40,411 nt of DNA from Thermoprotei archaeon (GTDB taxonomy: Archaea; Thermoproteota; Thermoprotei; Thermofilales; B20-G17): contig QMRW01000002.1 in NCBI GenBank assembly GCA_003650785.1, positions 1-40,411 on the forward strand. The letters are read 5' to 3'. The translations under genes were made by a program, and so were the position numbers. Within the stretch, counting starts at the first letter, position 1. Each line of letters opens with the position of its first letter. The notes beneath the pieces are model-generated. The model was not told where the DNA came from. It saw nothing but the letters and a program-made list of their open reading frames with translations, and ran no database searches. Shown here in pieces: positions 1,958-28,279 of this stretch.

Positions 1958-1973
1958 GAATACTAGAGTTTGA

Positions 1974-2061
1974 AGCCGGGGGAGGGATTTGAACCCTCGT
2001 CAACTCGGTGGCTGTGTTCTTGCCACTGCAGCCGAGCCCCTGACCCCTCGGGCACCCCGGC
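1974..2061 (-). tRNA. tRNA-Cys (anticodon GCA) with a 16-nt intron
   Basis: Minus strand GCCGGGG-TG-CCC-GAGGGGTCA-GGG-G-CTCGG-CTGCAG[TGGCAAGAACACAGCC]A-CCGAG-TTGAC-GAGGG-TTCAAAT-CCCTC-CCCCGGC-T; all four stems pair; mature length 72 nt; no encoded CCA. Intron 2010-2025 at canonical position 37/38. Confidence 0.92.
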
Positions 2062-2189
2062 TTCTCCTGTTTGAGTCTATCTAATCTACACCCACTTAAG
2101 TGTTCTAGGGACTCCTATCAGTATGTGACCACTTGTTGTAAATATACCTTTCCACTATTCTATGTAGTGTCTACTAATAGTACCCTATT

Positions 2190-18888: not shown

Positions 18889-20547
18889 GTGAGTATGGCA
18901 GGTAGGGGTATGGCAGGTAGAGGTAAGGCTATAGCTATTCCTGCAATAATACTAAAAGAGGGAACACAGAGAACTGTAGGTGCTGAAGCAAGACGGACTA
19001 ACATACTGGCTGCACGCGTTCTTGCAGAAATGCTCTCGACCTCTCTAGGTCCTAGAGGAATGGATAAACTTCTAGTTGATAGCTTTGGAAGTGCGACTAT
19101 AACAGGTGATGGTGCCACTATTCTAAAGGAGATGGATATTCAACACCCTGTGGCGAAGATGTTAGTAGAGGTAGCTAAGGCCCAAGATGAGGAAGTTGGT
19201 GATGGAACTACAAGTGTAGTAGTACTTGCTGGGGAGCTTCTGAAGAATGCAGAGGAACTACTCCTAGAGAATATTCACCCAACCATAATAATGGAGGGGT
19301 ACAAGAAAGCGCTTGAGTATTCACTGAAAGTAATAGATGAAATAGGAATTAAAGTGGACCCACTAGATAGGGAAGTACTCAGACAAGTAGCTGAGACAGC
19401 ATTAGCTAGTAAGGTAGTCTCAGAGTATAAGAGTATGCTAGCAAATCTTGCTGTTGAAGCTATACTACACATAGCACAAAAACTACCAGATGGTACCTAC
19501 AAAGTAGATCTAGATGATGTAAAAGTAGAAAAGAAGAAAGGAGAATCTATAGACCAAACCACATTAGTTAAAGGAATAGTACTAGATAAAGAGGTTGTAC
19601 ACCCAGGGATGCCTAAGAGAGTGGAGAATGCAAAAATAGCCCTACTAAACTGTCCGCTTGAAATAGAAAAACCGGAATGGAGTGCTAAGATAAGAGTCTC
19701 TAGCCCAGATCAGTTAAAAGCATTCCTCGACCAGGAGGCTGAAGTACTAAAGAAAATGGTAGATAAGATAGCCTCTATAGGAGCAAATGTCTTAATAACA
19801 CAAAAGGGAATAGATGACCTTGCACAACACTTCCTAGCAAAGAACGGTATACTTGCCGTTAGAAGGGTCAAGAAGTCTGATGTAGAGAAGATAGCCAAAG
19901 CTACTGGAGCTAAAGTAGTCACGAGTATTGAAGACTTAAAGCCAGAGGATCTAGGGGAAGCTAAACTAGTAGAAGAGAGAAAAGTTGGAGAAGACAAGAT
20001 GGTGTTCATCGAAGGTTGTCCTAATCCTAGAGCTGTTACTATCCTAGTAAGAGGAGGAGCAGAACATATAGTAGATGAGGTAGAGAGAGCTATTCATGAC
20101 GCCCTCTGTGTCTCTCGTAATATAATAAGAGAGCCTAAAATAGTAGCTGGAGGAGGAGCACCTGAGTTCGAAATAGCAAGACGACTTAGGGAATTTGCTA
20201 GTAGTCTCGGTAGTAAAGAACAACTAGCAGTACTCAAATATGCAGATGCATTAGAATCCATACCGACTATACTAGCTAGAAATGCGGGTATGGAGCCTGT
20301 TGATGTGATAGTAGAACTTAGGACTAGACATGATAGAGGAGAACTATGGGCCGGTGTAGATGTACTAAATGGCAGAATAGATGACATGATGAAGCTTAAA
20401 GTTCTAGAGCCTACAATAGTAACGAAACAAAAGCTAAAATCCGCTACTGAAGCAGCCGAAATGATACTCAGGATAGACGACATAATCGCTGCAGCTCCTC
20501 CCAAGGAGAGAGGAAAAGAAAAGGAAGAAGTCCCACCTGAGTACTAA
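18889..20547 (+). CDS. thsA: Thermosome (group II chaperonin) subunit
   Basis: [71 protein letters not shown] at 18895 or 18910 is a more likely start. Confidence 0.97.
18895..18924 (+). repeat. 15-bp tandem duplication encoding [10 protein letters not shown] at the thermosome N-terminus
   Basis: atggcaggtaggggt / atggcaggtagaggt (one mismatch). Confidence 0.9.
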
Positions 20548-20557
20548 GTGAAGTCTG

Positions 20558-20821
20558 ATGAGAGATAAGATAAAGAGTATAGTGGGGCCCAAAAAACTAA
20601 CTAGGTATGAGCTAGCTAGGGTAATAGGTGCTAGAGCTTTACAAATAGCTCTCGGAGCACCCGTACTGATAAAAATACCTCCTGGAATAACAGATCCAAT
20701 AGATATAGCAATGCTAGAGCTAAAGAGAGGAATCCTACCAATAATAATAAGGAGGAGACTGCCCAACAACGAGTATCAAGATATCCCAGTAAGCACCTTA
20801 CTAAGTAGTAGCGAGGAATAG
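20558..20821 (+). CDS. rpoK: DNA-directed RNA polymerase subunit K (Rpo6)
   Basis: [56 protein letters not shown]. Confidence 0.95.
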
Positions 20822-20838: not shown

Positions 20839-21177
20839 TCAAATATTCACATCAACTTTGTACTCTTTCCCCCTAATTACTACCTCTATCTCATCTCCTA
20901 TGTCCGGTTTTCTTGGTAATTTACTCCACTCATCCTCACTTAAGTATAATACCAGTCTAGGATATCTCATTCTACCTCTGGCAGTCAGGGACCTAATGAC
21001 CTGGCTAACTACGGGGATGACCTCCCTCATAAGCTCGGATTGAGGACCTTGCATTGTAATTATAGGTCCAGGAACTTCTCTCTCCTCGACAAACTCAAGT
21101 TTTACAAAGTTCTCTCCAGTAGGATCTGTTATTAACGTCTTACTTACCAATACTGCTTTAAATTTAACTTCTAACAT
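20839..21177 (-). CDS. Conserved archaeal protein, arcadin-1-like (tentative)
   Basis: MLEVKFKAVLVSKTLITDPTGENFVKLEFVEEREVPGPI...RYPRLVLYLSEDEW; resembles my recollection of crenactin-associated arcadin-1; proximity to crenactin supports it. RpoG was considered and not favoured. Confidence 0.45.
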   Translation of the reverse strand: MLEVKFKAVLVSKTLITDPTGENFVKLEFVEEREVPGPIITMQGPQSELMREVIPVVSQVIRSLTARGRMRYPRLVLYLSEDEWSKLPRKPDIGDEIEVVIRGKEYKVDVNI

Positions 21178-21321
21178 GTGTTACACTCACTTTATCTCGC
21201 TTATAACAGTATATAAAAGCGACGGTAGTACTAAAGACACCACTCTCATTCTATAACTCTCTATGAAGATAACTACAAGTAGATTTTTCTAGATCTGAGT
21301 AAAATAATACTTGGTGAAGGT

Positions 21322-21828
21322 ATGTCTGAGTTCGATGAGTGGTGGAAGAGAACTAGGAAATTCTTTGAAGATATAGATAGGCTTTTCGACGAGCTAATCA
21401 GAGAGTCTCTAGGAGAAGAAAGACGAAGGAGAGTCTTCGGACCATACTACTATGGGTTCAGAGTTACTATAGGTCCTGACGGAGTGCCTAAAGTTGAAGA
21501 ATGGGGTAATGTGAGGCCAGGTCCTATAAGACCTAGAATATCCGAGGCTATTGAGCCCTTTACCGATACGATAGAAGAAGAGGATGTCATAAGGATAGTA
21601 GCCGACATTCCAGGTGTTGAAAAGGAGAAGATAGATATTGAAGCTACTGAGGATACCGTAGTGATATCGGCTTCTAATGAAGATAGAAGGTACTATAAAG
21701 AGGTTCGACTACCAGCACCAGTGAAACCTGAAACAGCTAAGGCTACATATAGGAACGGTGTACTGACTATAACCATAGAAAAGAAGGAAAAGATCAAGAG
21801 AAGAGGATTTAGGATAAAGATAGATTAA
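21322..21828 (+). CDS. Hsp20/alpha-crystallin family small heat shock protein
   Basis: IRIVADIPGVEKEKIDIEATEDTVVISASNEDRRYYKEVRLPAPVKPETAKATYRNGVLTITIEKKE. Confidence 0.95.
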   Translation: MSEFDEWWKRTRKFFEDIDRLFDELIRESLGEERRRRVFGPYYYGFRVTIGPDGVPKVEEWGNVRPGPIRPRISEAIEPFTDTIEEEDVIRIVADIPGVEKEKIDIEATEDTVVISASNEDRRYYKEVRLPAPVKPETAKATYRNGVLTITIEKKEKIKRRGFRIKID

Positions 21829-21973
21829 TTCATTTTTTAAAATACTATCTTAGAACTTTCTCATGTATATACTCAATACTATTGAGACTCTTAGAATACG
21901 TTATCGTAAGACCGAGAAAGGAAAGATTTATATTACGATTGACTAAGAGGAAGCAGAGAAAGACGGTGATAGT

Positions 21974-22252
21974 ATGGAGGCACCAACAGGAGAAGTGAGA
22001 GTAGGTGCTAAACCGACAATGAACTACGTACTAGCGACAGTAATACAGTTCAATCAAGGTGCTAAAAATGTAGTTCTAAAGGCTAGAGGTAGAGCAATAC
22101 TGAAAGCTATAAACGCAGCACAGATTACAGTAAATAGATTCCTAAGAGATCAGGTAGAGATCAAGGATGTAAAGATAGGCAGTGAAGTAGTAGGAGAACC
22201 AGATAAACCTAGAAACATATCGACTATAGAAATACTATTAGAGAGGAAGTAG
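21974..22252 (+). CDS. albA: Alba chromatin protein
   Basis: VGAKPTMNYVLATVIQFNQGAKNVVLKARGRAILKAINAAQITVNRFL. Confidence 0.95.
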   Translation: MEAPTGEVRVGAKPTMNYVLATVIQFNQGAKNVVLKARGRAILKAINAAQITVNRFLRDQVEIKDVKIGSEVVGEPDKPRNISTIEILLERK

Positions 22253-22257
22253 TTTTT

Positions 22258-22530
22258 CTACCATACTCTCATAGCTAAAATCCACGACATAATGATTAGT
22301 ACTACCACTGCTAAAAGATTCACCATACTAGTACCTCCAGGATCTATTATGAAAGCATATACACTTACTATGAGAGTTATTGTAAGGACCTGTCCATAGT
22401 ACTTCATTATCTTAAACCGAACCTCCATTCTACCATCTCTTCTTGCTTTAATAGTCATTATTAAAGCAAGAGCAAATGAAAGTACTGATAGAGATACCGA
22501 TATAACAGTGATGATATATTCTATTACCAT
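22258..22530 (-). CDS. Small membrane protein, hypothetical
   Basis: Three predicted hydrophobic segments in 90 aa; colinear with the next two minus-strand genes. Confidence 0.6.
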   Translation of the reverse strand: MVIEYIITVISVSLSVLSFALALIMTIKARRDGRMEVRFKIMKYYGQVLTITLIVSVYAFIIDPGGTSMVNLLAVVVLIIMSWILAMRVW

Positions 22531-22540
22531 AAATTAGACC

Positions 22541-22900
22541 TCATAAGTCTATGAATTCAGGAGATCTCTTAAGCTTGATTATCGGTATATGAATCCATCC
22601 AGGTCTTATACCATCTTCTACTCTTACTTGCTCTTTTGACGTTAAGTTAATCAGAAGATATTTTCCTTTTAACTCACTCTTATTCCTATAATAATAGAAT
22701 ACAGGGATACCATACATTTTGTAGTAGTCTTTAAGCACTGCTAGTAGACCATAAATATATGAGCCATCCCTACCTTTAAACGACATTATATATATGGGGT
22801 ATCCCATACTCGACATTGAAGCGGCGAATCTCGCTAGAGAATCAAGTCCTTCAACCTCTATATTTACACAATGCTTAAACCTTTCATTTAAATTCTCCAT
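22541..22900 (-). CDS. Hypothetical protein
   Basis: 119-aa ORF directly abutting the cyclophilin-like gene. Confidence 0.6.
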   Translation of the reverse strand: MENLNERFKHCVNIEVEGLDSLARFAASMSSMGYPIYIMSFKGRDGSYIYGLLAVLKDYYKMYGIPVFYYYRNKSELKGKYLLINLTSKEQVRVEDGIRPGWIHIPIIKLKRSPEFIDL

Positions 22901-23275
22901 CTATTGAGCCTCCACTTTAATATTTACTCGTAATCCTTCTTTTAAGTTTCTAAGAGTGTGTAGGTACTCATCATGTTCCAATCTGCCTAGAATAGTAACT
23001 CTTCTTGTTAACCTCTGTGACTTAAGTGCGATATAAATGCTCTTAGTAGATGGGGAATAGAATACATCTCCTACCTCTACTCGTGTAGTAGGCTTCTCTA
23101 AAATTGAGGAGGCTCCGAGAGGGATCTCTACAAGTCCCTCTCCTATGCGATATACTCTACACTTACTCGGTATATTCCCTATAAGTTTACTAGTACAAAG
23201 AGGGGCCTTAATACCATCTATTATCAATACTGCTAGCACTCCGTCCTTCGTTTCTAGTATTACCCTATATTTCAA
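22901..23275 (-). CDS. Cyclophilin-like fold protein
   Basis: VEIPLGASSILEKPTTRVEVGDVFYSPSTKSIYIALKS resembles archaeal/TM1367-type cyclophilin-like proteins. Confidence 0.65.
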   Translation of the reverse strand: MKYRVILETKDGVLAVLIIDGIKAPLCTSKLIGNIPSKCRVYRIGEGLVEIPLGASSILEKPTTRVEVGDVFYSPSTKSIYIALKSQRLTRRVTILGRLEHDEYLHTLRNLKEGLRVNIKVEAQ

Positions 23276-23350
23276 GAGCTACCCCTCGATTATTGAATTG
23301 AAAGGATATATTTTTTACTACTCGTAGTAAGGATTACTAGGTGACTGTTA

Positions 23351-23566
23351 ATGAATCTCTCTCAGTTTAAAGATCCGAAGGATGCACTAAAATACCTTAA
23401 AAAAGAAAGGAAGAGGCTTGAGAAAGAGATGGAATTATTACTTAAGAAAAGAGATAGAGGAGAGATTGATGATGAGGAGTTCAATAGTAAAAAGAGAGAG
23501 ATTGAGAGAAAATTTATAGAGATAATGGATAGAATAGCCCAAATGAAGTACTTATCTGGTGTTTAA
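23351..23566 (+). CDS. Small coiled-coil protein upstream of crenactin
   Basis: 71 aa, strongly helical and charged: DALKYLKKERKRLEKEMELLLKKRDRGEIDDEEFNSKKREIERKFIEIMDRIAQMKYL. Confidence 0.65.
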   Translation: MNLSQFKDPKDALKYLKKERKRLEKEMELLLKKRDRGEIDDEEFNSKKREIERKFIEIMDRIAQMKYLSGV

Positions 23567-23655
23567 GTGAATAGAAGTAAAATAATACTTTCACCCTACC
23601 CTCTTCTATCACATTTATTAAGTTAGGTGAAAGTTAACTATTGAGGTGGAAGATA

Positions 23656-24921
23656 ATGAGCGATCTGGAAAAGTATAAACTCAAGTATGCCTTTGCAGAG
23701 GATTATGGTACTAGCTACTATAAATTTGGACCTGTTGGAGAGACACCAGACATAATAGAGAATAGAGGTATAATACTGGACAAAATATCCATAGTTTCAA
23801 AAATCATGGGTATTGAAAAAAATATTATAGTCGGTCCCGAAGTAGCCACCTATATAGGACATAGAGAGGCTATAGGAAGGCATTTAGTATATCCTATGAG
23901 AGATGGTCTAGTGGAAAAAGAGAATGAAAGAAGTTGGAGAGTAATCTACGAGATCACTAAGTACGGACTTAATAAACACAGACCCATAGCTTCAGATTTT
24001 AAAGGATTCTATGTAGCTGCTGCTCTCTCAGCTATAGCACCAGAATACATGTACCGGAGGATCTTCGAAATACATCAGAAGATAGATGAAGAAACGGGAT
24101 TAGTTAAGGCCGTCACTATAATACCTCAGCCCTTAGCTGTTGCTATAGCAGAAAAATCCATAACCTGTATAGTGGTGGAGTCAGGACATGGTAATACGCA
24201 GATAACTCCTATCTCTAGATACCCGATTAGAGAGGCTATACTCTCCCTCAATAGAGGAGGAGCAGAGGCAGATGCCATTACAGCAGAGATCTTAAAGGAT
24301 TGCGGATATGGCGATCTAGCTAGAGAAGAGAAACTGATAAGATGTATCAAGGAGTCGATAGGTCTAATACCTACTGACTTGCAGACTAGTATTGAAAAAG
24401 CAAAAAAGGACCCTGAGAGATTTAGAGCAGTATTCCACATACCGAATACTACTATTACGATAGATTTAGAGGAGAACTCATGGATGAGATTCTTGATAGG
24501 AGAGATAGTATTCGATCCTGAAAACGAAATATTTGAAAGTTTTTACAGAAAAGGAATGCCTAGACCGAGGGATACAATGGTTGGCGATACGAGAATTCCT
24601 GGAACCATAGACATGGCTAGAGCTATTATAATGTCAGCAGAAAGGACATCTTTCGAGGTACAAATGTACCTCTATAGAAAGATAATACTTAGTGGTGGAA
24701 ACTTCTCATGGAAAGTTCCTAGAGGTCTTGAAGATGCAGCAACTGATGCGGCAACTAAAATCATGAGTATGCTTAAGAAATACAACATCGAAGCTAGGGT
24801 AGAGCTAACAAAGGATCCCATGTACTCGGTGTGGAAAGGTGCACTTGTCTATGCAATAGCAGTTCCAGATGAATATGAGTGGAATTGGGAAAGTATGGAA
24901 GGTTGGTATAAGTGGAGGTAG
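23656..24921 (+). CDS. Crenactin (archaeal actin homologue)
   Basis: DYGTSYYKFGP (phosphate 1), IIPQPLAVAIAEKSITCIVVESGHGNTQITPIS (phosphate 2), SLNRGGAEADAITAEILKDCGYGDLAREE, ILSGGNFSWKVP (adenosine), YSVWKGALVYA; very close to Pyrobaculum crenactin. ATG at 23656 preferred over 23641 (gaggtgg SD-like upstream). Confidence 0.93.
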   Translation: MSDLEKYKLKYAFAEDYGTSYYKFGPVGETPDIIENRGIILDKISIVSKIMGIEKNIIVGPEVATYIGHREAIGRHLVYPMRDGLVEKENERSWRVIYEITKYGLNKHRPIASDFKGFYVAAALSAIAPEYMYRRIFEIHQKIDEETGLVKAVTIIPQPLAVAIAEKSITCIVVESGHGNTQITPISRYPIREAILSLNRGGAEADAITAEILKDCGYGDLAREEKLIRCIKESIGLIPTDLQTSIEKAKKDPERFRAVFHIPNTTITIDLEENSWMRFLIGEIVFDPENEIFESFYRKGMPRPRDTMVGDTRIPGTIDMARAIIMSAERTSFEVQMYLYRKIILSGGNFSWKVPRGLEDAATDAATKIMSMLKKYNIEARVELTKDPMYSVWKGALVYAIAVPDEYEWNWESMEGWYKWR

Positions 24922-24931
24922 TGTACTCGAA

Positions 24932-25639
24932 ATGAATTCCATAGAGGACTTTAAAGAAGTAATAATCGAGCACTTTCGTAGAAGAGGATGTACGCGACCT
25001 CAAGTAGATATATCTGAAGATGTCATTAAGCAAGTGGATCTAGTACTTCAGGATGCTAATAACTTATTAGCCTTTAGAATATTTCGTGGTATAGTATACT
25101 CCGCAGCGGAGTTCAGAGTAATGATAGATGAAGAGATACTTAGAGCTACTAAATTAACCGAGGTATTCGATAAAGTGTACATAGTGATTCCAGATACTTA
25201 TACCGACATGGCTAGATCAGTGATAAGTGGTAGAATTCTCGATGAAGTAGGAATAGGGATTATAGCAGTAGATGAACATGGTAATGTAGAAGAACTCCTA
25301 GTACCCAGACCTACAAAACTTACTCGAAGAGAACTAGGAAAGGGAATAGAAGAGATAGTAGGTGACCTAAGGCGGAGAATAGATGAAATAGAACTACTTT
25401 ATAACTCACTAAAGACAGAGTTTGGAGTACTGTCCGAAAAAATTACTAAAATTGAGAGAACTCTTAGCATGCTCAGAGAAGAGGTAGATGTACTCAAAGG
25501 AAAGCTATCTACCCTACCCACTAGGCATGAAATTATTGAAGAAATAGGTGAGAAAACTCTTGCTCCGGTAGAGGAATTACCTTCCTTCGCTAAGAATAAT
25601 CCTTGGCTTGAGATTCTTAGAAAACGGGAGAGAGAATGA
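24932..25639 (+). CDS. Arcadin-2-like coiled-coil protein (tentative)
   Basis: Directly downstream of crenactin; N-terminal globular part, central coiled coil, short amphipathic tail FAKNNPWLEILRKRERE. Track start 24869 lies inside crenactin; ATG 24932 more likely. Confidence 0.6.
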   Translation: MNSIEDFKEVIIEHFRRRGCTRPQVDISEDVIKQVDLVLQDANNLLAFRIFRGIVYSAAEFRVMIDEEILRATKLTEVFDKVYIVIPDTYTDMARSVISGRILDEVGIGIIAVDEHGNVEELLVPRPTKLTRRELGKGIEEIVGDLRRRIDEIELLYNSLKTEFGVLSEKITKIERTLSMLREEVDVLKGKLSTLPTRHEIIEEIGEKTLAPVEELPSFAKNNPWLEILRKRERE

Positions 25640-25821
25640 CAGAAGTAGATGAAACTAAGTTAATGAGGGAAATCTTAGACTTGATAGATAGTAGAACTGA
25701 CTATGACGAAAGTGTTAAAAAGTTGGCTAAGGATATTCTCATAACCTTCAAGAGAGAGGGGAAGAAGGGAGTTGAAAAAATAATTAACAAGTTAATCGAG
25801 GGAATTAGTTCCGATGTCTAG
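25636..25821 (+). CDS. Small helical protein, arcade operon member
   Basis: 61 aa, overlaps the stop of the upstream gene (25639) and the start of the downstream Rad50-like gene (25814), indicating translational coupling. Confidence 0.65.
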   Translation: MTEVDETKLMREILDLIDSRTDYDESVKKLAKDILITFKREGKKGVEKIINKLIEGISSDV

Positions 25822-28279
25822 AGGTTTTAGAATAGAAAGCCTAGAGATAGAGGGATTTAGAGCATTTAACCTACCTCGTAAGTTCAAGTTAGGAGATGCT
25901 AGATTCATATTACTGATAGGGCCTATAGGCTCAGGCAAATCCTCAGTTCTAAAAGCTATAGAATACGCTCTCTATGGTTCCTCCTACGAGATTACTAGAC
26001 TAGGACCAGTTAGATTAAAACATGAAGATGTGATAAACGATTTCAAGGATATGCTGAACATAGAACTTGTACTAGGAGGAGAACATGAACTAAGAGTGGT
26101 CAGGAGTAGAAAAAGAGGAGGAGTAGGTAAACTAAGAGTTTACATCGATAATAGACCTGTTAAAGGTGAAGCTGAATCCTTTCTCAGAAGCTGTATAGTA
26201 CTGGGTCATGAGGATTTTCTAAGAGAAATAGTCATACACCATCTCATACTAAGAGATATTGTTGAAGGTGGTCCAGTAAGAAGGAGTGTAGCTTTAGATA
26301 GACTCTTTGGCATAGAGATGTTAGAGCAGACATACAAAAGCATACCACTAACCATAGTTGAGAAGAAGATAGATGAACTTAAGATGAGAATAAAGGAAGT
26401 AGATCTAGAACTAGCTAGAATAGGTTCTCTCTACACTCCTCAAGAGTTAAAATCCTTAGAGGCGGACATTGAAAGACTTCGGGAGAAAGTATCAACTATT
26501 CAGCAAGAGTACGACTATATCGAGAATCTACTCACAAAACTTGAAGAAGCTAGACTGAAGTATGGACTACTTCTAGAGAGATACAGTAACTTAGAAAGTC
26601 AACTAGAGGATATAGAGAAGAGACTAGAAGAAGTAGAGGAAGTAAGTACAGTAGAGCTTATTTCAGACATGGAGGATGTACTTGAAAACACAATTTCATT
26701 CCTCCGAGATATGTTATATGAGGATATTATTAAAGAGATCCCGAGAGGAGATGAGATATCGCTTAGTGAAAAAGTACTCAAAAGTACTAGTAAAGCTCTC
26801 GACGTAGTAAGTAGTATAGTAAGAGACCTGGAATTTAAGCTAGAAGACCTAGTGAATGAGAGGATGGAGTATAAGAGAAGGTATGATGTACTACGAAGTA
26901 GAAAACTAGACCTAGAGTCGGAAATAGAGAGGTTACTTCATTATCGCTATGAATATATGAAGCTTGTTAAGAAGTATGGAATACCAGATGACATAGAGAA
27001 GAGAATAGAGCAAAAGGAATCAGAATTTCTAAGACTCAATCGTAAGAGTAGGCAGTTAAGAAATCTGTGGGATCTCCTTAAAATACTAATAGATAGACTT
27101 AGATTGGAAAAAAAGATAGAGTGCCCTGTATGCGGTAGCAAACTCGTAGAGGATGATCTGAAAAAGATATTGGAGAGAAAAGACAGATTGGAAAAGAAAG
27201 AACTAGTAGATACTATTACAAGGATGGAGAGAATAGAAAAAGAGATTGAAAAATTAAGAGAGATTCTGGATAGAATTAAAGAGTTAGAGGAGAAAGTCAG
27301 AAAACTAGAGGAACTGGAGTTAGAGAGAGAAGAACTAGAAAGAAAAACATCGAAGTTAAACAACATACTTCAGCATGCTGAGGAAAATATCCATATAGTA
27401 AGAGATAAAATAGGAAGAGCCAAACATTTAGAAGTAAGATTACAAGATCTAATAAGTAAACTGAGCACCTATCTTGAAAGAAAAGATCTAATTGAGAAGC
27501 AAAAGGAGCTTCATAGTAAATTAAAGAGCATTAAAGAAGAGTTGGAGAAATTGAAGTATGAAGAAGATAGGTACTTAAAATTAAAGAAAAAGAGAGAAGA
27601 GCTGAGGAGGACACTGTTCGAAAATAGAGTTAAGCTGGAGAGTATGCTCAAGGACTATGAAAGAACGAAAAAAGAGCTGGAAAAGGCTCATTATTTATTC
27701 AAAAATAAGGAGCTATTAGAGAAAAAATTAAGAGATCTCGAGACACTACATAAGCGTCTTAAGAGTGTTAGAAATCTCCTAAGAGTAGTACAAGCTGATC
27801 TTAGGACTCGCATGCTAGAGAGGATAAGGAGTAACATGAATAAGACCTTCAGACAACTCTATGTACATCCAGATCTAGTAGAGGTAGATATAAGAGCAGT
27901 CGAGGTAGCCAAGAGGAGTATATACGAAATATATGTAAGACGAAGTAGTGATGGAGAATGGGTGCCTATATACTCGAAACTCAGTGATGGTCAAAGACTA
28001 ATGATAGCTCTATCCCTACTTCTCTCTATATACAAATTATATCCACATAACATAGATTTTATATTACTAGATGAACCCTTTGCTAACATAAATGGAGAAT
28101 GTAGAAAATCTATTCTCAAACTCCTAGCGAGAACCGATAGTCCTCAACAGGTGCTCATAGCAACGCAAGACGAAACTATAATAAGTCTTATAAAAAAGAT
28201 AATCGATAAGGACAAGATAATAGTATACAAACTAACCTATGGAGGAGTAGAAGGCCCTAGAGTTACTAGGATACATTAG
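25814..28279 (+). CDS. Rad50/SMC-like ATPase with zinc hook (arcadin-4-like)
   Basis: Walker A GPIGSGKSS, long coiled coils flanking CPVCGSKL zinc hook, signature LSDGQRLMIALSLLL, Walker B FILLDEPFANI. Confidence 0.9.
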   Translation: MSRGFRIESLEIEGFRAFNLPRKFKLGDARFILLIGPIGSGKSSVLKAIEYALYGSSYEITRLGPVRLKHEDVINDFKDMLNIELVLGGEHELRVVRSRKRGGVGKLRVYIDNRPVKGEAESFLRSCIVLGHEDFLREIVIHHLILRDIVEGGPVRRSVALDRLFGIEMLEQTYKSIPLTIVEKKIDELKMRIKEVDLELARIGSLYTPQELKSLEADIERLREKVSTIQQEYDYIENLLTKLEEARLKYGLLLERYSNLESQLEDIEKRLEEVEEVSTVELISDMEDVLENTISFLRDMLYEDIIKEIPRGDEISLSEKVLKSTSKALDVVSSIVRDLEFKLEDLVNERMEYKRRYDVLRSRKLDLESEIERLLHYRYEYMKLVKKYGIPDDIEKRIEQKESEFLRLNRKSRQLRNLWDLLKILIDRLRLEKKIECPVCGSKLVEDDLKKILERKDRLEKKELVDTITRMERIEKEIEKLREILDRIKELEEKVRKLEELELEREELERKTSKLNNILQHAEENIHIVRDKIGRAKHLEVRLQDLISKLSTYLERKDLIEKQKELHSKLKSIKEELEKLKYEEDRYLKLKKKREELRRTLFENRVKLESMLKDYERTKKELEKAHYLFKNKELLEKKLRDLETLHKRLKSVRNLLRVVQADLRTRMLERIRSNMNKTFRQLYVHPDLVEVDIRAVEVAKRSIYEIYVRRSSDGEWVPIYSKLSDGQRLMIALSLLLSIYKLYPHNIDFILLDEPFANINGECRKSILKLLARTDSPQQVLIATQDETIISLIKKIIDKDKIIVYKLTYGGVEGPRVTRIH

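Follow-up and report, generated by a model that had tools for sequence, protein, structure and literature searches.

The arcade gene cluster of a Thermoprotei archaeon (contig QMRW01000002.1, of which a stretch of 40,411 nucleotides was analyzed and is referred to below as the window) encodes the archaeal actin crenactin together with arcadin-2, and the C-terminal tail of this arcadin-2, which aligns with a peptide crystallized in the crenactin groove, was also found at the end of numerous other proteins, most of which appear to bind DNA. With a groove-binding tail on so many DNA-binding bodies, the simplest reading is a set of adaptors that link crenactin to DNA. We favor the explanation that the cluster is inherited and that crenactin would be joined to DNA via tail-bearing adaptors resembling ParR, and assign it a probability of roughly two in three.

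To our knowledge, the cellular role of crenactin has been open since 2011, and its host cells lack FtsZ and, until recently, lacked a recognized ESCRT division system. Reviews still name crenactin as the most likely division machinery (PMC7617429). A crenactin-binding tail shared by DNA-binding proteins would provide a concrete list of candidate partners and would point, in a testable manner, to DNA rather than cell shape. If true, crenactin would join ParM-ParR as a second example of an actin connected to DNA via its groove, in this instance on archaeal chromosomes. Within the open-access literature, no description of the shared tail or of the predicted fold of arcadin-2 was found.

The arcadin-2 tail and its occurrence on other proteins

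The tail of arcadin-2 follows the C-terminal motif NxW[LVI]xx[LI]xx[RK], with the Trp conserved in 44/44, the Asn in 43/44 and the Leu in 42/44 of the arcadin-2 proteins. In genome G063, the protein encoded after crenactin reads 203 aa, and its residues 187-203, RGGIGENEWVKILRSKR, agree in length and end residues with the Pyrobaculum calidifontis arcadin-2 peptide R187-R203 that was crystallized in the crenactin groove (Izore 2016, PMC5173319). The end of the window's arcadin-2 (NNPWLEILRKR) aligns with this G063 peptide and is the sole tail of its kind within the window. The isolated peptide depolymerizes crenactin filaments, and filament formation as well as its control by arcadin-2 are known for P. 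calidifontis only (Izore 2016, PMC5173319).

A DNA search of five crenactin genomes with the pattern [DN]-N-P-W-[LVIA]-x-x-L-x-x-[RK] returned 12 matches, compared to 0 for the reversed pattern that served as a control. All 12 were located at the C-terminus of an open reading frame (ORF), and seven lay outside the crenactin-adjacent gene, including two in the window's own genome (1.45 Mb in 203 contigs, with the window as contig C2), namely a helix-turn-helix (HTH) protein on contig C6 (G000:C6:19514-20026) and a protein on contig C133. The latter (L199, G000:C133:3535-3630) is broken by the contig end, its readable part being ...LPSFAKNNPWLEVLRRRR.

Pattern matches and tail-only matches of the arcadin-2 profile together yielded at least 38 tail proteins other than arcadin-2 that were read in crenactin genomes. 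Among these, 23 were HTH proteins distributed across several families of the class to which the window belongs, while the remainder included ribbon-helix-helix-like, C2H2 zinc-finger, AbrB/MazE-like and winged-helix-like proteins, with the zinc-finger protein of genome G260 originating from outside the class. For several of the tail proteins, HTH and C2H2 DNA-binding domains exceeded the Pfam cut-off. Coiled-coil noise was ruled out as the source of the tail-region matches to the arcadin-2 profile, since the sequences showed real tails. The HTH proteins of one family read NVW instead of NPW, and a covariation of tail variants within a genome was dismissed, since DNVW in HTH proteins and DNPW in arcadin-2 occurred in the same group.

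Distribution was assessed in a phylum sample of 300 genomes, with crenactin detected in 107 and in none of the other 193; these counts treat related genomes as independent, which renders enrichment p-values too optimistic. Among the matches listed, a verified tail on a protein other than arcadin-2 was present in 25 of the 107 crenactin genomes versus one of the 193 crenactin-less genomes. Within 748,667 distinct ORF residues, the motif was C-terminal 74 times and internal 0 times, a result that supports its position and not its frequency, as the loci had partly been picked for the tail. Taken at the level of sequence, these comparisons establish a tail family that is strictly C-terminal and concentrated in crenactin genomes. 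The gene for the HTH-tail protein is an inherited chromosomal gene, because its neighborhood of ECF transporter and GTPase genes is kept across the class and in the window's genome.

Distribution and predicted fold of arcadin-2

Arcadin-2 is the constant partner of crenactin across the phylum, since it was present in 104 of the 107 crenactin genomes and in 0 of the 193 crenactin-less genomes. In most of the loci checked outside the class it adjoins crenactin, and neither arcadin-3 nor arcadin-4 was seen beside crenactin in these loci. The three crenactin genomes without an arcadin-2 match were G165, G230 and G154, the last of which contains only a crenactin fragment. In G165 and G230 a gene next to crenactin encodes a coiled-coil protein that has two to four membrane-like segments and ends in DNPWA(G/A)ILSDRK, an arrangement that is possibly a membrane-anchored crenactin system. 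Genes encoding VWA-domain and PAS/histidine-kinase proteins adjoin crenactin and this NPW-tail membrane protein (G165, L126:2583-3764; G230, L127:80-1261).

An AlphaFold model of arcadin-2 built from three sequences (mean predicted local distance difference test score, pLDDT, 74.7, core mostly 72-90) consists of an alpha/beta core (~residues 1-130), a long coiled coil (132-193) and a C-terminal helix. Among PDB structures, Foldseek searches with this model matched XisH, the restriction enzyme PaqCI, tRNA splicing endonucleases and XPF (best E 1.2e-3). MmcB-like DNA repair proteins (E 1e-5 and 4e-4) were matched among viral models, where the best match was unnamed (5e-8); all top matches together ranged from E 5e-8 to 1e-2. 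We take the named matches to represent the restriction-endonuclease-like superfamily, a fold that had been guessed for the core from its strand pattern before the Foldseek search. The core is predicted to adopt a catalytically degenerate PD-(D/E)XK, or restriction-endonuclease-like, fold. As no sequence-level match was obtained from PDB, Pfam or hhalign, this fold remains a prediction.

Across the arcadin-2 family, the residues corresponding to D...(D/E)xK were retained in part, with D36 in 22/44 and K/R in 29/44 proteins, while the acidic position of ExK is lost. In this respect arcadin-2 differs from the PD-(D/E)XK domains with which it shares the predicted fold (XisH, MmcB-like proteins and tRNA splicing endonuclease). 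The core is probably inactive and catalysis unlikely, because the acidic residue of ExK is absent. The arcadin-2 profile also recovered a coiled-coil protein of genome G064 (L172:1322-1945) with a C-terminal nuclease-like domain that keeps EVK; hhalign detected no relation between this domain and the arcadin-2 core.

Crenactin and DNA: proposed mechanism and alternatives

By homology to P. calidifontis (Izore 2016), crenactin would polymerize into F-actin-like filaments, and the last ~12 residues of arcadin-2 would grip its hydrophobic groove, resulting in growth control or monomer sequestering. Tail proteins binding DNA as dimers or oligomers would offer several tails, which would reach crenactin monomers or the filament end with a free groove. 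In this way crenactin filaments could be anchored to DNA or guided by it, similar to ParM with plasmid ParR, which likewise is a DNA-binding protein and inserts a C-terminal helix into the actin groove. The structural parallel between the arcadin-2 peptide and ParR has been drawn before, for arcadin-2 alone (Izore 2016, PMC5173319). Unlike in ParM-ParR, one tail is common to many DNA-binding folds here, and most tail genes whose surroundings are known are chromosomal and located away from the actin gene; no homology between the two systems was shown.

From the shared motif we infer that tails other than that of arcadin-2 bind crenactin and that the N-terminal domains of the tail proteins bind DNA at defined sites, with the segregation or organization of DNA as the presumable purpose. 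In a more specific version, crenactin would serve as the motor or scaffold of chromosomal DNA segregation or organization, to which HTH, ribbon-helix-helix, zinc-finger, AbrB-like and arcadin-2 adaptors dock by the shared tail, with arcadin-4 as a further DNA-handling partner; this version is offered tentatively, at somewhat less than even odds.

Several points weigh against adaptors of this kind. Binding data exist for the published Pyrobaculum arcadin-2 peptide alone, and the depolymerization driven by this peptide (Izore 2016, PMC5173319) fits sequestering as well as tethering. The ribbon-helix-helix, AbrB-like and winged-helix assignments of tail proteins are weak or were made by eye, the tail search profile was derived from one class with matches listed to E ~5e-7, and the p-values for tail enrichment are too optimistic given the relatedness of the genomes. 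Apart from arcadin-2, the verified tail proteins include none from the Pyrobaculum/Thermoproteus family, where the tail reads NEW, and genome G277, in which no crenactin was detectable, has one tail protein on a 5.9-kb contig. Besides the 85-aa tail protein, this contig (G277:C4, L180), which is perhaps a plasmid, carries genes for an AAA ATPase and a radical-SAM-like protein.

In thymosin beta-4 and the RPEL-MRTF system, a short groove peptide controls polymerization or couples actin to transcription. Along these lines, the main rival explanation holds that arcadin-2 of a known arcade cluster merely sequesters monomers, comparable to thymosin beta-4, and that the remaining tail proteins act as transcription factors which sense free crenactin as RPEL proteins do. 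The depolymerization of filaments by the isolated arcadin-2 peptide (PMC5173319) is in agreement with this, as are the sigma-70 region 4/LuxR-type HTH domains typical of regulators that the commonest tail proteins carry and the fixed neighborhood of their genes. However, the tail is shared by a membrane protein and by several DNA-binding folds that are unrelated to each other, which a tether fits at least as well as a single regulatory circuit, and the archaeal tail is a C-terminal NxW helix with no sequence relation to thymosin beta-4 or RPEL-MRTF. We consider a sensor role of this type unlikely.

Still less probable is a general C-terminal docking or degradation signal for another partner, of which crenactin binding by arcadin-2 would be a special case. 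The tail protein in crenactin-less G277 and the extreme C-terminal position, as in many degrons, would be expected from such a signal, but the tail is concentrated in crenactin genomes among the matches listed, it matches the peptide crystallized in the crenactin groove, and its membrane-protein version adjoins crenactin. An earlier note on this DNA had instead described a rearranged arcade cluster containing insertions that could be linked to cytoskeleton or cell-shape biology. The genes in question, including p119, p71 and a cyclophilin-like gene (Table 1), are physically close in this class, but they are inherited neighbors, and these three are widespread without crenactin and linked to each other, so that we regard this view as very improbable.

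The arcade cluster and its inherited neighborhood

The window contains a complete arcade cluster of a known kind, comprising crenactin and arcadins 1-4. All ORFs named in the earlier note exist at the positions given there, and its calls of crenactin, an arcadin-1-like gene and a Rad50/SMC-like partner were borne out by the model and structure matches listed in Table 1. The partner is arcadin-4, in which Walker A, a CPVC zinc hook, signature and Walker B are all present; its match to NF053563 falls under the strict cut-off of that model, Walker A and a CxxC hook were found in 34/34 arcadin-4 relatives, and a distinct Rad50-type match is located elsewhere in the genome (G000:C7). The note had recognized the arcade cluster and missed its completeness, since arcadin-2 is represented by the coiled-coil ORF and arcadin-3 by the 61-aa ORF, both of which reach the respective families by iterative hidden Markov model (HMM) profiles. 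The direct NCBIfam models Rkd2 and Rkd3 did not match the window's arcadin-2 and arcadin-3; homology was recognized via iterative profile, position and tail for the former and via iterative profile for the latter. The true start of crenactin is probably ATG 23656, while for arcadin-2 the most likely start is ATG 24932 (235 aa, 10 nt past the crenactin stop) and not 24869, judging from the best homolog alignment.

Table 1. Features of the arcade cluster and its neighborhood in the window
Feature	Position	Strand	Basis
Thermosome subunit	18889-20547	+	conserved neighbor of rpoK and arcadin-1
RNA polymerase subunit K (RpoK)	20558-20821	+	PF01192 E 6.2e-10; NCBIfam subunit K E 1.1e-24
Arcadin-1	20839-21177	-	PF18653 E 1.4e-29; PDB 5ly5 (solved arcadin-1) E 1.7e-20
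Hsp20	21322-21828	+	NF041800 E 8.6e-57
Alba	21974-22252	+	label from the earlier note; conserved ORF family and position
Small membrane protein, p119, cyclophilin-like gene	22258-23275	-	cyclophilin-like: PF18050 E 8.8e-05
p71, small helical (SHOCT-like) protein	23351-23566	+	upstream of crenactin; conserved within the order
Crenactin	23641-24921	+	NF053560 (NCBIfam crenactin) E 4.5e-184; PDB 4cj7 (solved crenactin) E 2.4e-111
Arcadin-2	24932-25639	+	iterative HMM link to NCBIfam Rkd2 proteins; position between crenactin and arcadin-3/4
Putative crenactin-binding tail of arcadin-2, LPSFAKNNPWLEILRKRERE	25577-25636	+	alignment with the crystallized P. calidifontis arcadin-2 peptide
Arcadin-3 (61-aa ORF)	25636-25821	+	iterative HMM joins proteins matching NCBIfam Rkd3; always between arcadin-2 and arcadin-4
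Arcadin-4, Rad50/SMC-like ATPase with zinc hook	25814-28279	+	NF053563 (NCBIfam arcadin-4) E 3.8e-96

Gene order was compared between the window and the crenactin loci of 40 further genomes of the same class. Crenactin-arcadin2-arcadin3-arcadin4 was contiguous in 36 of the 38 untruncated loci, with the window counted, and the two exceptions were genomes with crenactin standing alone. Such class-wide conservation of the order rules out chance as the origin of the ORFs and of the crenactin-arcadin linkage. The arrangement thermosome>rpoK>arcadin1<Hsp20>Alba>memb<p119<cyp<p71>crenactin>2>3>4 is the usual one in the order to which the window belongs, with the full series identical in the window's family and a second family, while other families retained much of it with inversion or losses. 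Almost all genomes that have an arcadin-1 locus preserve thermosome>rpoK>arcadin-1<. Contrary to the earlier note, in which the genes between arcadin-1 and crenactin were regarded as insertions, the cluster is not rearranged, and the series thermosome-rpoK-arcadin1-Hsp20-Alba-cyclophilin-like constitutes an inherited neighborhood.

The same five gene families constitute the arcade cluster of P. calidifontis (Ettema 2011, Izore 2016). The genomes that best match the NCBIfam arcadin models share the crenactin-arcadin2-arcadin3-arcadin4 order with the window and have arcadin-1 co-oriented with crenactin and immediately upstream of it, whereas in the window, as in most of the class, arcadin-1 lies 2.5 kb from crenactin, reversed and beside thermosome-rpoK. 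Arcadin-1 is tied more tightly to thermosome and rpoK than to crenactin, as a phylum sample of 250 genomes contained it in ~50 that lack crenactin. This looser link is in keeping with arcadin-1 binding crenactin weakly and having no effect on polymerization (PMC5173319). Widespread without crenactin and tied to thermosome-rpoK, arcadin-1 (window 20839-21177) may not be cytoskeletal.

The suggested connection of the intervening genes to cytoskeleton or cell shape found no support. A strong p119 match was present in ~70 of the 300 genomes, 18 of the 107 with and 52 of the 193 without crenactin (Fisher p 0.06), and genomes lacking crenactin therefore had p119 at least as often as those with it. 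The cyclophilin-like family occurred in 224 of the 300 genomes, and p71 was clear in 33, including 13 crenactin-less ones. In crenactin-less genomes p119 adjoins the cyclophilin-like gene, which is a divergent neighbor of p71, and in two of them rpoK and thermosome are located 2.3 kb from p119. Based on this distribution, p119, the cyclophilin-like gene and p71 were ruled out as new parts of the arcade cluster, p71 being a neighbor and no dedicated component. Hsp20 and Alba are general families. Since the neighboring genes are widespread in the absence of crenactin, they do not count as evidence for a cytoskeletal function. A structure prediction for p119 (pLDDT 47.6) was too low for use. A 244-aa, two-repeat relative of p119 directly adjoins a thermosome gene in genome G117 (L121:4112-4846), and p119 may be chaperonin-related.

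Two further observations were made. ARAGORN called a tRNA at window positions 1972-2062 with a four-base anticodon (gcag), possibly an intron-containing Leu tRNA or else an artefact. A crenactin 100% identical to that of the window was encoded on a 3-kb contig (QMZE01000250.1, L002) filed under an Archaeoglobales metagenome-assembled genome from Guaymas Basin, probably as the result of a binning error.

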